Below are positions 49,038 to 59,100 of a stretch of 64,000 nt of DNA, one piece after another (within the stretch, counting starts at the first letter, position 1; every line of letters starts with the position of its first letter). The notes beneath the pieces are model-generated. The model searched no databases. It had not been told where the DNA came from and saw nothing but the letters and a program-made list of their open reading frames with translations. The stretch comes from Dactylellina haptotyla (Eukaryota > Ascomycota > Orbiliomycetes > Orbiliales > Orbiliaceae): positions 992,001-1,056,000 of the forward strand of contig CM062384.1 in assembly GCA_031310005.1 (NCBI GenBank), written 5' to 3'. A program made the translations under genes and the position numbers.

Positions 49038-49169
49038 GGTCGCTTAGCTCAGTCGGTTAGAGCGTGGTGCTAATAACGCCAAGGTAAATACACCTCCAAA
49101 CAACTCACATCATCTCAATCAAATAACTAATAAGACCATAGGTCGCGAGTTCGACCCTCGTAGTGACCA
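49038..49169 (+). tRNA. tRNA-Ile (anticodon AAU) with 58-nt insertion in the variable loop
   Basis: With 49084-49141 removed, the remaining 74 nt fold as a perfect cloverleaf. Acceptor arm GGTCGCT pairs with AGTGACC; D-arm GCTC/GAGC; anticodon arm TGGTG/CGCCA around the loop CTAATAA (anticodon at 49072-49074, read AAU); variable loop AGGTC; T-arm GCGAG/CTCGT around TTCGACC. The anticodon-arm and variable-loop sequence matches the conserved eukaryotic tRNA-Ile(AAU) consensus. The insertion splits AG|GT of the variable loop, begins GTAAAT, has CTAAT near its end and finishes CATAG. A canonical-position reading (intron 49076-49132 at 37/38) is possible but leaves a G-G mismatch in the anticodon stem and a 6-nt variable loop. 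A and B boxes are recognisable. Confidence 0.85.
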
Positions 49170-49192: not shown

Positions 49193-49198
49193 TTTTTT
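49193..49198 (+). terminator. RNA polymerase III T-run terminator
   Basis: Six consecutive T residues, 24 nt after the tRNA discriminator base, as expected for Pol III termination. Confidence 0.75.
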
Positions 49199-49454: not shown

Positions 49455-51078
49455 ATGCAGGCATCGCGCTACCTCCCCCGCCTCAGCCAGCACCTCACTC
49501 CGCGGCCGGCGTTAATATACGACTTCACCCCGCGCATATCATGTCTTCACACATCCCGTCATTTCAGCAGCACCCCGGCGGCACCGCAATCCTCCCAACG
49601 TACGTGAGTGGACTCCATATAGCTAAGAATACAATTTTACTCCCATTTATTATTTTCTACTTACTAATTTACTTGCATATTCTCATCAGCTGACCTCCCG
49701 AACACAATCACCCTCGCAAACATAACCTACAATACCGACAGTCATACCAACATCCCCACCTCCCTGATCCCCTACCTCCGCCGCAACCTGCACCTGCAAC
49801 CGCACCACCCGATCTCCAACACCAGACGAATAATCGAATCCCTCTTCCCCACAACTCAATTCGAAACATACAACTCCCTCCCGCCGATTGTCACCGTCGC
49901 GCAGAACTTCGACTGTCTCGGTTTCCCGCCGGACCACGTCGGCCGCAGCAGAAGCGATACGTACTATGTCAACCGCCATACCGTGTTACGCACGCACACG
50001 TCGGCGCATCAAGCTGAGAAGTTTAGGGTGCTCGAGGAAGTCGGAAAACCGGGGTACCTGATCTCCGCGGACGTGTACAGACGTGATGCGATAGATCGGA
50101 GTCATTACCCTGTTTTCCACCAGATGGAGGGCGCCATGGTGTTTTCTCGGAAGGATGAGAAATCTGTGGTGGAGCAGGTTACCGAGGGGTTAAACGCCAT
50201 GCCGGAGGCGGACGTGGAGATTGTTGAGAGCTGTAAGCTGCACGAGGAAGGGAATGGCGTGCAGGTTGAGAAGGGACATAGTGTCGACGAAGCCGAGGCT
50301 GTAGCGAGGCATTTACAACGGCAGCTGGAGTTGATGGTTTCCAAGGTGTTCAGTGAAGCTGCTAAAGCTGCTGGGGCTGCGGAGAAAGAAGAAAAAGTGA
50401 AAGTGAGGTGGGTGTCGGCGTATTTCCCGTTTACCTCGCCGTCGTATGAGTTGGAGGTTTGGTGGAACGGAGAGTGGTTGGAGGTGCTTGGGTGTGGAGT
50501 TATCCGCCAGGATTTGCTGGATTACGCGGGCCAGAAGGATAAGATTGGCTGGGCGTTCGGATTGGGAATTGAGAGAATTGCAATGTTGATGTATGGGATT
50601 CCGGATATCAGATTGTTTTGGAGTCAGGATGATAGGTTTGGTAAGCAGTTTAGAGAAGGAGCGGTGAAGCGGTTTGAGGCGTTTAGCAAGTATCCCGGTT
50701 GCTATAAGGATGTAGCGTTTTGGTTGCCCGTGGAGGAGGGTGCTAGTGCCGCCGGGGGGTTGAGTAAGGGTGGTGAGATTGGGGGTGAGAAGTTCCACGA
50801 GAATGATTTTATGGAGTTGGTGAGAGGAGTCGGTGGGGATTTGGTGGAGGACGTCAAGTTGGTAAGTAAAATCAGTAAAGTGCCCAATGGATATCGACTG
50901 AGCTAACCAATAGATGTAGATTGACGAGTTCACAAACAAGAAAACGGGCCGCAAATCGATGTGCTACCGTATCAACTACAGATCTCTCGAGAGAACCCTC
51001 ACCAACGACGAAGTTGACAAACTCCAAGAAAAGGTCCGGTCGACACTCACTGAGAAACTAGGCGTCGAGCTCCGATAA
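49455..51078 (+). CDS. MSF1: Mitochondrial phenylalanyl-tRNA synthetase
   Basis: Charges mitochondrial tRNA-Phe. Three exons (49455-49599, 49690-50861, 50920-51078) give 491 aa, the expected size of the monomeric mitochondrial enzyme. The N-terminal exon is a Ser/Arg-rich presequence. Class II synthetase motifs follow: PISNTRRIIESLF, the VLRTHTSAHQ segment, ISADVYRRDAIDRSHYPVFHQMEG, and motif 3, IGWAFGLGIERIAMLMYGIPDIR. The C-terminal FDX-ACB anticodon-binding domain starts near SKYPGCYKDVAFWLP and ends at the C-terminus (TLTEKLGVELR). An insertion around residues 245-320 contains an Ala/Glu/Lys-rich linker. High confidence. Confidence 0.94.
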
Positions 51079-53226: not shown

Positions 53227-54810
53227 ATGGCATCGAGGCCGCATTCCCGCGAGCGGCTGGCAAAGCCCGACGATGTCTTCGCCCTCGCCAAGCTAGGGTA
53301 CCAACAGGAGCTCAAACGAAACTTCTCAAAATATGAAGTAATGAGTACCGCCTTTTCGATAATAGGTCTTCTACCGTCTATCGCCTCCAGCTTAATCTTC
53401 GCTCTACCCGCCGGACCGGTCGGTATGGTTTGGGGTTGGTTTATTGCCAGCATATTCACATTCCTAGTCAGCGTGGCCATGGCGGATTTGGGATCAGCGA
53501 TGCCGACGGCAGGTGGTCTCTATTGGTGGACACATTACTTCAGCGCACCCGCGTGGAAGAACCCGTTGGCCTTTCTTGTTGGTTATTCCAACACTCTAGG
53601 CGTCATCGGTGGGCTTTGTTCGACGGACTACGGATTCGCATTGATGTTTCTATCAATCGTGCATATGGCGGTTGGCGAGGGGACATTCGCACCGACCAAC
53701 GGCACTGTGTACCTGGTATTCGTGGTATGCATAATAACCCATGCTACTGTCGTTACCTTCGCCTCGAAAATCATGGCTAAGCTGCAAGTGATATTCATGG
53801 TTGCAAACTTGTTATTGATCGCTTTGACGATCATTATCCTCCCCATCGGAAGAAAACATACAAACGGCGCACACTTTGTGTTTTTAAAGTCAGAGAACCT
53901 CACTGGCTGGCCGCCTGTCTGGACCTTCTTCCTATCCTGGATGTGTCCCATCTGGAGTGTTGGCGGGTTTGAAGCTTGTGTCCATCTCTCCGAAGAAGCC
54001 AAAAATGCACCTACAGCTGTGCCCTGGGGGATCATGGCATCCTGCGGGTTGAGCTCATTCCTCGGGTTCATCGTTATGATGGTAATCGCGACATCCATGA
54101 CCACAGATATCAACAGCCTCATCAATACACCACTCGGTCAGCCATTCGCTCAGATATGCTTAGACGCACTAGGAATCAGAGGAGCGATATTCATGATGTC
54201 ACTACTAGCCGTTGCGCAGTGGCTAATGGGATTAAGTGTCCTCGTAGCGGGGAGTCGACAATCCTGGGCTTTCTCCCGTGACGGTGCCCTCCCGTTCTCA
54301 AAATTCTTCAGCGAGATCAACCAAACTTTCGGGTATATCCCTCTCCGCACGGTCTGGGGCTGTTCAGTTGTCGCCCTCATCCTCGGACTTCTCTCTTTAA
54401 TCGCGCCAGCTGCAGCATGGGCGTTATTCTCACTTGGTGTGGCCTCAAACCACCTCGCATGGTTCATGCCGATATTCGCGCGAGTAATCTGGGGAAGGGA
54501 TAAGTTTGTCCCCGGGCCGTTCTACACAGGCGCATGGAGCATTCCCATCGCTGTGATATCTTGCTTTTTCTTACTTTTCAGCATTGTTACTGCCATGCTT
54601 CCTGCGAACGGACCGAAAGTAACACCCGAGACGATGAATTATACTGTCGTTATCAATGGCGCGGTCTGGGGTGGCGCTCTTTTGTATTATTTCCTCGATG
54701 CGAGGAGGTGGTTTACCGGACCGCGGATTACGCTTGATGCCGCTCATTCTGGTCTTACCGAAGAACAGGAGGAAATGATTTCGAAGGAGGCGCTGGTTGA
54801 TATTAGATAG
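53227..54810 (+). CDS. APC-superfamily permease (GABA/choline/amino-acid type)
   Basis: Intronless 527-aa integral membrane protein of the amino acid/choline transporter branch (related to yeast Uga4, Hnm1 and Bio5). N-terminal cytosolic segment with LGYQQELKRNFSKYEVMSTAFSIIGLLPSI, the diagnostic first-helix region. Then ALPAGPVGMVWGW, SAMPTAGGLYWWTHYFS and ACVHLSEEAKNAPTAVPWGI (consensus amphipathic loop after helix 6), GSRQSWAFSRDGALPFS, and about 12 predicted transmembrane segments overall. The C-terminal tail is acidic and ends EALVDIR. Substrate is not deducible: GABA, choline or another amino compound. The lack of introns contrasts with the multi-intron neighbours. Confidence 0.88.
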   Translation: MASRPHSRERLAKPDDVFALAKLGYQQELKRNFSKYEVMSTAFSIIGLLPSIASSLIFALPAGPVGMVWGWFIASIFTFLVSVAMADLGSAMPTAGGLYWWTHYFSAPAWKNPLAFLVGYSNTLGVIGGLCSTDYGFALMFLSIVHMAVGEGTFAPTNGTVYLVFVVCIITHATVVTFASKIMAKLQVIFMVANLLLIALTIIILPIGRKHTNGAHFVFLKSENLTGWPPVWTFFLSWMCPIWSVGGFEACVHLSEEAKNAPTAVPWGIMASCGLSSFLGFIVMMVIATSMTTDINSLINTPLGQPFAQICLDALGIRGAIFMMSLLAVAQWLMGLSVLVAGSRQSWAFSRDGALPFSKFFSEINQTFGYIPLRTVWGCSVVALILGLLSLIAPAAAWALFSLGVASNHLAWFMPIFARVIWGRDKFVPGPFYTGAWSIPIAVISCFFLLFSIVTAMLPANGPKVTPETMNYTVVINGAVWGGALLYYFLDARRWFTGPRITLDAAHSGLTEEQEEMISKEALVDIR

Positions 54811-56112: not shown

Positions 56113-59100
56113 CTATTTCTTCGCCCTACCCTTCCCTTTTGCTGGGGCCTTCCCTTTGCCCTTCCCCTTGCTTCCATAATCTTCCTCTTCGTCCTCGTCA
56201 TCATCCTCCTCTACGGCCGCCTTCTTGCCTTTCCCTTTACCCTTCGCGGCAGCCTTCCCCTTAGCTTTCGGCTTGGCCTGCTTGACGTATTTATCCTTCG
56301 TAATATCCATATCTTCCTCCTCTTGATCCCCCGCGCCTTCTGCCTCTTCAACCATTTCGAGCTCATCATCCTCTTCCTCAATTGCCTCTTCAAGATCTGG
56401 CTGCTCCTTCTTTGCGGCCTTTCCTTTCGGCGCGATGACGTTGCTGGCCTTCATGAAAGGCATTGGATGAGAGGCAGCGTTATACCTATACAATATTATT
56501 AGTCATGCTCTCTTGGACAAATTATTAACAGATACACTTACGCTCTAGTGAACGCTGACTTCGCGGCGGACGGAACTTTCAAGGTATCTTCACTTAACGG
56601 ACCCACACCAAGCTCGATAATTGCATCATAATCCTCCTTCGTTAAGAAATAATCGTCCATAAGTTCGATCATATCCTCCACCGCTTCCTTTCCTTCGGCC
56701 TCCAACCGCCTCGCTAATAACTGCCAAAACATCGGAACATAAAACTGTCGAACTTCGTGTCTATCTGCCGAACATCGTAGACGCATGTGCGATTGGATTT
56801 CCTTCACGAAGCGCATCAATTTGCCTTGCTTCGAGTTTTGTCCGAACCACGCAGAGAATTGCATGTGACCACCGCCGTAGCTGCCGGACATGAAACTCGA
56901 GGGGGCCACAGTGGAAAACACCGCGTGAACAGGCATCATACTCCAATGCTGCTGTGGGCCGTGAATCATTGCGTCGACTAGATCACCATCCGATATCGAC
57001 TCCGCAGCTTTGTCAGCCAGTTCCAGCAATTTTAGCGTCCGCTGTTTTCCTTGATAGTTTGCTGCTCGCAGAGGGTTCGGCTTGAGATAGTTATCCTGAA
57101 TCATCAGATACGAAAACTCGTGATCGTTGAAATACAGCTCAATCTTGTCATTCAGGGTCTTTTTGCTCGTAGCCGCAAACATCTGAGGTCCGAGCAGCTG
57201 TCCCGCGATATCCCAAGGTTTCAGTATGACGTGTTTCTGCCATGCTTGCGCCATGTTTTTGCTCTCATCGAAACTCATCTCCTTCCCACTAACACCAAAA
57301 GTTGACAACATGTTGATAATTTGTCGAATGTCGGAATGTGATCCTTCCGAGAGGGAATCTATCGCCTGTGGAGTGAGTTTCAGACCTTCGCGGTAACAAA
57401 TAGTCATCATTCGAGTTCTGATCTCAGCTGCTGTGGGGCGTCTGAACTGGAGATCGTAGGTAACATGGTCGAATGGCTTCATCTTCGGTAAGCGGCGGTC
57501 ATTGCAAATACAAATAATCGGTATCTGTGGAACGTTAGTAATCTTTTTACACTCGTTGTGGTTCACACTTCAACTCACTTGGGTTTTTCGACAAAGGGCT
57601 GCCATCTGGCCAACACCACCCCTATCACCAGCCGACATACCGTCCACTTCGTCCATGATGAGCACAATCTTCTGCTTCGAGGCATCGACTTTCTTGTCCC
57701 CTGTGTTGAAATAGCCCATCAAAGATCTATTATCCAACACTCCTTTCAATGTGGAGTCCAGCAGTTTTTTGCTTCGGGTGTCACTGGCGTTCGATTCGAG
57801 CACGTCATAACCTTCAAGCTTGGCTACCAAATGCGCCGCAGTGGTCTTTCCAACGCCCGGGGGTCCGTGTATCATAACCGCACGGTAAATACCACTCCCA
57901 TCAGGTCCAAGCATTTTAAAGTTCTTCTGCAGGTTTTTCGGCCAGTTCTGCAGCCACTTCTGGAGCTTATCGACTTGGCCTTTATTTCCGCAAATTTCCT
58001 TCATAGATCCAGGCGAGTATTTCACTGTCCACAGTTGCGAGCTAGGATCTTTAGCTTCCTTACCAGGTGCAACAGATGTATTCGGTTTGATTTCCTTTGC
58101 CATCTCTTGTATCTTCTTCTCTTCTTCCTTCGCCTTCTTTGCGGCCGCCATCGCAGCTGTACTGTCCCCACCGTGGGCGGGAAGTTTTGAAATCAAGGCG
58201 AAAAGGCCATCCTCGTCTATTGTTTTAAGCTTCAATGTTCGGACTTTTTCGAGTTTGCTCGGTCCGGCGTCGCTGCCAACTACAACATAGCTCGTTTTAC
58301 CGGATGGGCCACCCGTTACTTTTCTAAATTCAGGATTAGTATAGAATTCGCACACATTAGAAGATAGTGTCATGCTTACCCTCCGTATCGCTTGACTAGC
58401 TCGACTGCGTCTTCCCGGCTTATAGATTGTTGATTACCAGTGAAAACAAATGTTAGTCCAGCGAGACAGTTTTCAGCGCCGACGGGTATATCTTTGGTTC
58501 CAATTGGGGGCGGTGGGGCCGCTTTTTGTTTGTACGCATGGAAGTTAAACCTAGTCACATTTAGTGGTAATTCAAGTTAAATTGATTTCAAGGTGCCATA
58601 CTTCTTTGTCTCGTCCCTCGGTGGCGGAGTCGGCGCCTTCACGGTTGGTACAGTGCTCAAGATCTCCTTGATAGACTCCGATTCCTCAATCTCATCGACT
58701 TCCTTCTTCTTGGCCGGTGTCTTCCTCTTTGCTGCCGTAGTAGCTTTCTTCTTTGGCTTTGGTTGCTCATCTTCGTCTTCATCATCCTCAGGGGTTATCG
58801 ACTTTCTCTTCTTTCCCTTCGGCGCAGCACCATTCTTCTTCGGTGTGATCTTTACTATCGAGCTCTTTGCACCCCTACCCCTGGGTTTAATATCCTCATC
58901 ATCTTCATCTACGAAATCGTCCATATCTTCGTCCTCATCGCCGTCATCATTATCTTGATAGTCATCTAAATCCATGTCGTCCTTCTTTTTCTTTTTGCGC
59001 ACAGGCTCATCCTCCGTGACCTTTCCAAACTCGCTTTTGAAAATATCGTCACCGTAATCTTCGTCATCGTCATCCAGGTATTTCGAATCATCGTCGGATG

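Follow-up and report, generated by a model that had tools for sequence, protein, structure and literature searches.

Probable spliceosomal introns in a tRNA-Ile(AAU) gene and other nuclear tRNA genes of the nematode-trapping fungus Dactylellina haptotyla

In the textbook view the introns of mRNAs are removed by the spliceosome, and those of nuclear tRNAs, which lie between positions 37 and 38, by an endonuclease and a ligase. Cyanidioschyzon merolae is said to depart from this scheme, with ectopic tRNA introns at other positions. The relevant section of a 2014 review places nuclear tRNA introns exclusively between positions 37 and 38, and it describes the nucleomorph of Guillardia theta as having tRNA introns elsewhere (PMC3978253). 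Like the cases presented below, the G. theta and C. merolae introns are thus eukaryotic tRNA introns outside 37/38; they differ in that the same section treats them in terms of a bulge-helix-bulge motif and the tRNA endonuclease, not the spliceosome, and it adds that many of the G. theta introns have no defined bulge-helix-bulge (PMC3978253). The canonical 37/38 introns share with the six insertions described here their location in nuclear tRNA genes, and in five of the six genes the two kinds coexist; they are distinguished by their position and by the GT-CTAAY-YAG signals found in the six.

Among short structured RNAs, the closest parallels are in the U6 and U3 genes of fungi. The U6 introns of Schizosaccharomyces pombe and others resemble the present cases in being introns of the mRNA type within a short, structured RNA made by Pol III, and the fungal U3 snoRNA introns in having pre-mRNA-type splice sites within a structured small RNA. 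There is, however, a difference of host: U6 is a component of the spliceosome and tRNA is not, so that insertion near the catalytic nucleotides of U6 cannot explain the tRNA cases. In 2017 U3 and U6 were named, in the portion of the article relevant here, as the sole small structured RNAs in which introns were so far known to be frequent, with tRNA unlisted (PMC5832005). The main text of the tRNAscan-SE 2.0 article describes noncanonical introns for archaea and does not contain the string "spliceosom", and the relevant portions of the Monacrosporium haptotylum genome article mention no such tRNA introns (PMC3828140). In the accessible portions of the open-licence literature we found no report of spliceosomal introns in tRNA, although such a report may exist elsewhere.

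The window considered here is a stretch of 64,000 nucleotides (C6:992001-1056000) from the 39.8 Mb, 11-contig assembly (C1 to C11) of D. haptotyla (= M. haptotylum). A cmscan search with the Rfam tRNA model at its gathering threshold reports a single tRNA in the window, 49038-49169 on the plus strand, scoring 47.4 bits (gathering score 29), and assigns its extra bases to the variable loop (Table 1). The initial annotation had proposed that removal of 58 nt from this locus restores a perfect tRNA-Ile, and this proves correct: excision of 49084-49141 leaves a 74-nt tRNA-Ile(AAU) in which all 21 cloverleaf pairs form and whose imposed-cloverleaf energy is -23.7 kcal/mol. The further proposal that the insertion occupies the variable loop rather than position 37/38 agrees with the placement by cmscan and with the better fit to the cloverleaf. 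By inspection, the gene has its internal promoter boxes as well as its cloverleaf and anticodon; we take the A-box region to be TAGCTCAGTCGG at 49045..49056 (+) and the B-box region GTTCGACCC at 49149..49157 (+).

Table 1. Features of the tRNA-Ile(AAU) gene, in window coordinates (a slash marks an exon-insertion junction)
Feature	Position	Strand	Basis
5' exon of tRNA-Ile(AAU), positions 1-45	49038..49083	+	cmscan; scripted split
Anticodon AAT in loop CTAATAA (49070-49076)	49072..49074	+	sequence; ARAGORN anticodon aat
58-nt insertion in variable loop (45/46), read as spliceosomal intron	49084..49141	+	cmscan; scripted split; folding
5' splice site GTAAAT (AAG/GTAAAT)	49084..49089	+	sequence
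Branch-site-like ACTAATA, candidate branch A 49130, then 11 nt to intron end	49126..49132	+	
3' splice site TAG (TAG/GTC)	49139..49141	+	sequence
3' exon, positions 46-73, end ...GTGACCA (last A = discriminator)	49142..49169	+	cmscan
T6 run, candidate Pol III terminator, starting 24 nt past last tRNA base	49193..49198	+	

All of the splice-like signals attributed to the insertion (AG/GT, GTAAAT, ACTAATA and TAG) are indeed in the sequence. The presence of AGGT at both of its ends allows five possible registers, one of which is GT-AG. The absence of a G at position +5 of GTAAAT counts against the intron reading. A length of 58 nt had been considered normal for the mRNA introns of the window, and it falls within the 54-92 nt of 11 mRNA-like introns, which have 10-20 nt after the branch A. 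These introns, 11 chosen from 20 rows in which alternatives had yet to be merged, were selected on open frame and motif and are unchecked against proteins, so only their lengths and spacings are informative and they are silent on how rare GTAAAT may be. One of them, at 56541 on the minus strand, has the same ACTAATA as the tRNA insertion. With introns allowed, ARAGORN also calls a tRNA-Ile(aat) here but gives it another intron, of 40 nt; under the bacterial code it finds no tRNA in the window. A search of the genome with the window insertion gave the self-match alone at E <= 10 (the search skips very common words), and for this insertion an introner-like element, which would be expected to have near-identical copies, was rejected on that basis.

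Just downstream of the tRNA gene is an open frame (49983-50906, +) which we take to resemble mitochondrial phenylalanyl-tRNA synthetase, presumably with an intron at about 49600-49689. Further on, an amino-acid permease (53227-54807) shares 98% identity with H072_1008 of D. haptotyla CBS 200.50 and 62-78% with proteins of other Orbiliomycetes.

We assembled 62 tRNA genes from contigs C1-C10, 50 as genome-scan rows and 12 from other searches; this set leaves out 12 rows on contig C11 and one truncated tRNA-Ile. It represents part of the tRNA genes of the genome and is skewed to high scorers, 63 of the 1538 scan candidates having been scored; 149 tRNA genes have been predicted for M. haptotylum (PMC3828140). 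Contig C11 (249,811 bp) is probably mitochondrial. Several of its tRNA matches recur about 140.7 kb apart (22761/163480 and 89180/229899), and it therefore seems to contain the circle about 1.8 times; the mitogenome published for D. haptotyla measures 146,101 bp (PMC7801010).

Insertions outside 37/38 are present in six of the 62 genes, two each for Ile, Phe and Leu(CAA). The remaining 56 comprise 22 uninterrupted genes and 34 with only an intron that fits 37/38, the criterion being at least four of the five anticodon-stem pairs (one of the 34, C1:6157411, by a shifted 4/5 fit). The scripted fit excludes the four inserted Phe and Leu genes; the one it gives for the window gene (4/5 pairs, 40 nt to the 3' end) is spurious, and this gene was counted as an exception, as was the inserted Ile gene of C5. 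Five of the six inserted genes also hold a 37/38 intron, the window gene being the only one that does not. Ordinary tRNA introns are very common in this genome (39 of the 62 genes, that is, the 34 and these five).

Comparing the tRNA-Ile(AAU) copies of the genome had been suggested as a check on the window gene; another interrupted copy was found, and so were two copies without the insertion. The latter are C7:2913810-2913883, which is uninterrupted, and C2:1683226-1683322, with an ordinary 37/38 intron; the window gene is consequently redundant. In addition, C1:5270301-5270354 (minus) is a truncated relative of the window copy, also a tRNA-Ile(AAU), whose similarity fades in the T arm; dead copies thus do arise in this family. 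The interrupted copy, C5:1075636-1075791, has an ordinary anticodon-loop intron and a second insertion of 68 nt in the T stem (52/53), GTCGTAG/GTAAGA...TTAACTAAC...CCCGCAG/GTTCGAG, with the signals GTAAGA...ACTAAC...CAG. Once both insertions are taken out, 20 of the 21 pairs form and one acceptor pair is T-T. The window and C7 copies differ at eight bases, six of which fall in three pairs where both partners have changed without loss of pairing. Between the C5 and window copies there are 17 differences; six pairs persist although both partners have changed, and of two pairs with a single changed partner one is kept and one broken. Four of the changed-and-kept pairs of the C5 gene are in the T stem, the very stem that its insertion splits.

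An A-box pattern search, which is blind to splice signals, located four tRNA-Phe(GAA) genes. Two of them (C2:1275203 and C2:1276326) have only the ordinary 37/38 intron; the two others, C2:2854349-2854498 (minus) and C6:817055-817200, have in addition an insertion at 30/31, of 60 nt in C2 and 56 nt in C6, which reads TCAG/GTCAGT...TACTAAC...TAG or CAG/ACTGAAG. The mature sequence of both inserted genes is that of the C2:1276326 copy (73/73 nt). The interiors of the two insertions have diverged and their splice signals have been retained. At the Rfam gathering threshold neither of the inserted Phe genes is reported, versus both of their sisters; this comparison leaves out the two Leu loci, whose sequence was cut off.

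Two tRNA-Leu(CAA) genes, on C7 from 305940 and on C1 from 3301053 (minus), are likewise interrupted at 30/31, by 64 nt and 78 nt respectively: TGTG/GTATGT...CTAACATA...TTTCAG or TTCTAG/ACTCAAG, with a branch-like CTAAC. Their 5' exons are identical (30/30), and again the interiors have diverged and the signals are conserved; the genes were read in part (3' exons incomplete), and identity refers to the sequence read, with the acceptor stems outside it. Past CTCAAG, both genes have a further stretch that on inspection looks like an ordinary 37/38 intron, and removal of both inserts gives an anticodon stem TGTGA/TCATG (here the two strands of the stem) with two G-U pairs. A search restricted to these exons found no insertion-free Leu(CAA) junction at <= 1 mismatch that we could accept: the single 1-mismatch match has a changed loop position 32 and was rejected, being within the reversed control's count of three. 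The Phe and Leu(CAA) insertions share one tRNA position, 30/31 (before ACT), in two isotypes, perhaps through a shared preference or a shared origin.

Of two U6 copies, the one with the higher score (C3:3497926 region, segment 1426-1611) has a 67-nt intron of the spliceosomal type, ...GGTCAATTTGAAA/GTAAGT...GTGCTAAC...TTACAG/CGATACAGAG..., with a branch-like GCTAAC, located just 5' of the ACAGAG box. The Rfam U6 match extends into the intron, and its 5' part is aligned to it. The intron contains a B-box-like GTTCGAATCC. The second U6-like copy, C1:6867785-6867885 (minus), has no intron and an unusual 5' half; perhaps it is a pseudogene. U6 introns of the same kind are known in fungi, according to the passages cited (PMC10484740; PMC5832005). 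Given such an intron in U6, the spliceosome of D. haptotyla very probably already has a Pol III transcript among its substrates.

All six tRNA insertions start with GT, contain a CTAAY whose branch A is followed by a further 11-18 nt, and end in YAG, and the GT...AG ends extend to the U6 intron. The window gene was the finding from which the analysis started; the other five were found by their tRNA sequence and not by a splice motif. In a relaxed GT/branch/YAG test, defined after the sequences had been seen, 400,000 segments of 50-80 nt drawn at random from the window gave 64 passes with five registers allowed and 14 in a single register. That four gene families independently have these signals is not chance. 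A pattern of branch site plus AG before a B box had seven matches versus 13 in the reversed control; six of the seven are distinct (the seventh repeats a C11 match), and only the C5 tRNA-Ile among them is a nuclear tRNA of the spliceosomal type. A further pattern gave four matches versus none in the control, one of them the window gene; the three others were not counted, as an uninterrupted tRNA with an anticodon loop CTAAY can also match. TTTT is absent from all seven Pol III inserts and present in five of the 11 mRNA-like introns; this would fit a need for Pol III to read through the inserts, though with such small numbers this is suggestive only.

For the window gene taken singly, it could be supposed that the intron is a canonical 37/38 one (49076-49132) and that the splice-like signals are fortuitous. 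This would restore the usual position, CTAATAA is found at both ends, and the unconstrained minimum energy is no worse (-25.6, compared with -25.4 for removal of 49084-49141); these two values do not discriminate, and both minimum-energy folds have a non-cloverleaf T arm. However, the product would be 75 nt long with a 6-nt variable loop and, as the initial annotation had pointed out, a G-G mismatch in the anticodon stem (20/21 pairs); its cloverleaf energy is -21.7 versus -23.7 kcal/mol, and cmscan sites the insertion in the variable loop. On the fit to the cloverleaf we have rejected this reading, which has hardly any probability left. The imperfect repeat CTAATAA(C/G)(G/A)CCA reported at both ends does exist. 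We take it for an accidental resemblance between the anticodon loop and the branch site, because by inspection the other five cases have no such pair; the 12-nt repeat was also considered as a mechanism and rejected. A broader alternative, modeled on C. merolae, is that all of the insertions are introns of the tRNA type at ectopic positions and that the tRNA splicing endonuclease cuts them. They are after all in tRNA genes, five of the six genes need the endonuclease in any case, and at the C5 Ile junction one register gives three of four inner and three of three outer bulge-helix-bulge pairs. The best inner-helix score is that same 3/4, reached in the two inserted Ile genes, and in the registers tested a complete bulge-helix-bulge is absent from all six junctions; this is a weak test, since of two canonical control introns one has 4/4 inner pairs and the other, with only 1-2, fails. 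Endonuclease cleavage leaves unexplained the GT, CTAAY and YAG of all six insertions and the conservation of these signals, and we regard it as very improbable.

A less remote alternative, albeit still an unlikely one, is that these are disabled copies: redundant tRNA genes into which spliceosomal-type introns or mRNA-intron DNA have come, and which are silent or give no mature tRNA. The existence of uninterrupted and canonical-intron tRNA-Ile(AAU) copies, of two Phe genes without the extra insertion and of the truncated Ile copy at C1:5270301 all speak for it, as does the T-T in the acceptor stem of the C5 gene. But there is little exon decay: the window gene retains 21/21 pairs, and both Phe genes equal an uninserted copy over 73 nt. 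Nor would dead genes be expected to keep their splice signals in two pairs whose insertions have otherwise diverged; no insertion-free Leu(CAA) with the same exons turned up at <= 1 mismatch; and T-runs suited to Pol III termination follow each of the four inserted copies whose 3' end was read. A dead copy is possible for the window gene alone; in view of the exon state and the conserved splice signals, it is hard to hold for all six.

Of the explanations weighed, we therefore favor, with considerable assurance, a nuclear tRNA-Ile(AAU) gene that is split by a spliceosomal intron of the U2 type (GT-AG) and belongs to a set of six or more such genes, from whose transcripts the spliceosome would remove the insertion. 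Among the three options first offered for the window gene, that of an intron gained in a Pol III gene is strongly favored by the five further tRNA genes and the intron-bearing U6. Somewhat less firmly, we think it likely that nuclear tRNA genes of this fungal lineage have repeatedly acquired spliceosomal introns (at least four families, three positions), that the spliceosome removes these introns and that some tRNAs pass through two splicing systems in series. Transcription of the window gene by Pol III would be directed by the A and B boxes within it, and the spliceosome would take out the insertion by the lariat pathway, joining AAG/GTC to give the normal 74-nt tRNA; here the spliceosomal step alone would suffice. 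That this copy is itself expressed and spliced we infer from its sequence. In the five other genes the spliceosomal intron would be lost first, in the nucleus, and the 37/38 intron then removed by the tRNA endonuclease and ligase. For Phe and Leu this order would be obligatory, since the spliceosomal intron splits the anticodon stem beside the loop, which is needed for recognition by the endonuclease. The introns could have originated through reverse splicing into a pre-tRNA that was then copied back, or through a gain at the level of the DNA.

As judged from gene sequence, then, the mRNA splicing machinery probably matures some of the tRNAs of D. haptotyla, which gives a familiar type of intron a new host, tRNA. 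Genes that combine the two kinds of intron would break the textbook division of labor set out at the beginning, would provide the spliceosome with a highly structured Pol III substrate besides U6, and would show that introns can be gained in genes without a reading frame. They also point to tRNA genes that present tools may miss, as the inserted Phe genes below the Rfam gathering threshold illustrate. If this interpretation is true, the supply of tRNA-Leu(CAA) in this fungus would be tied to the spliceosome, both of the copies found carrying such an intron.
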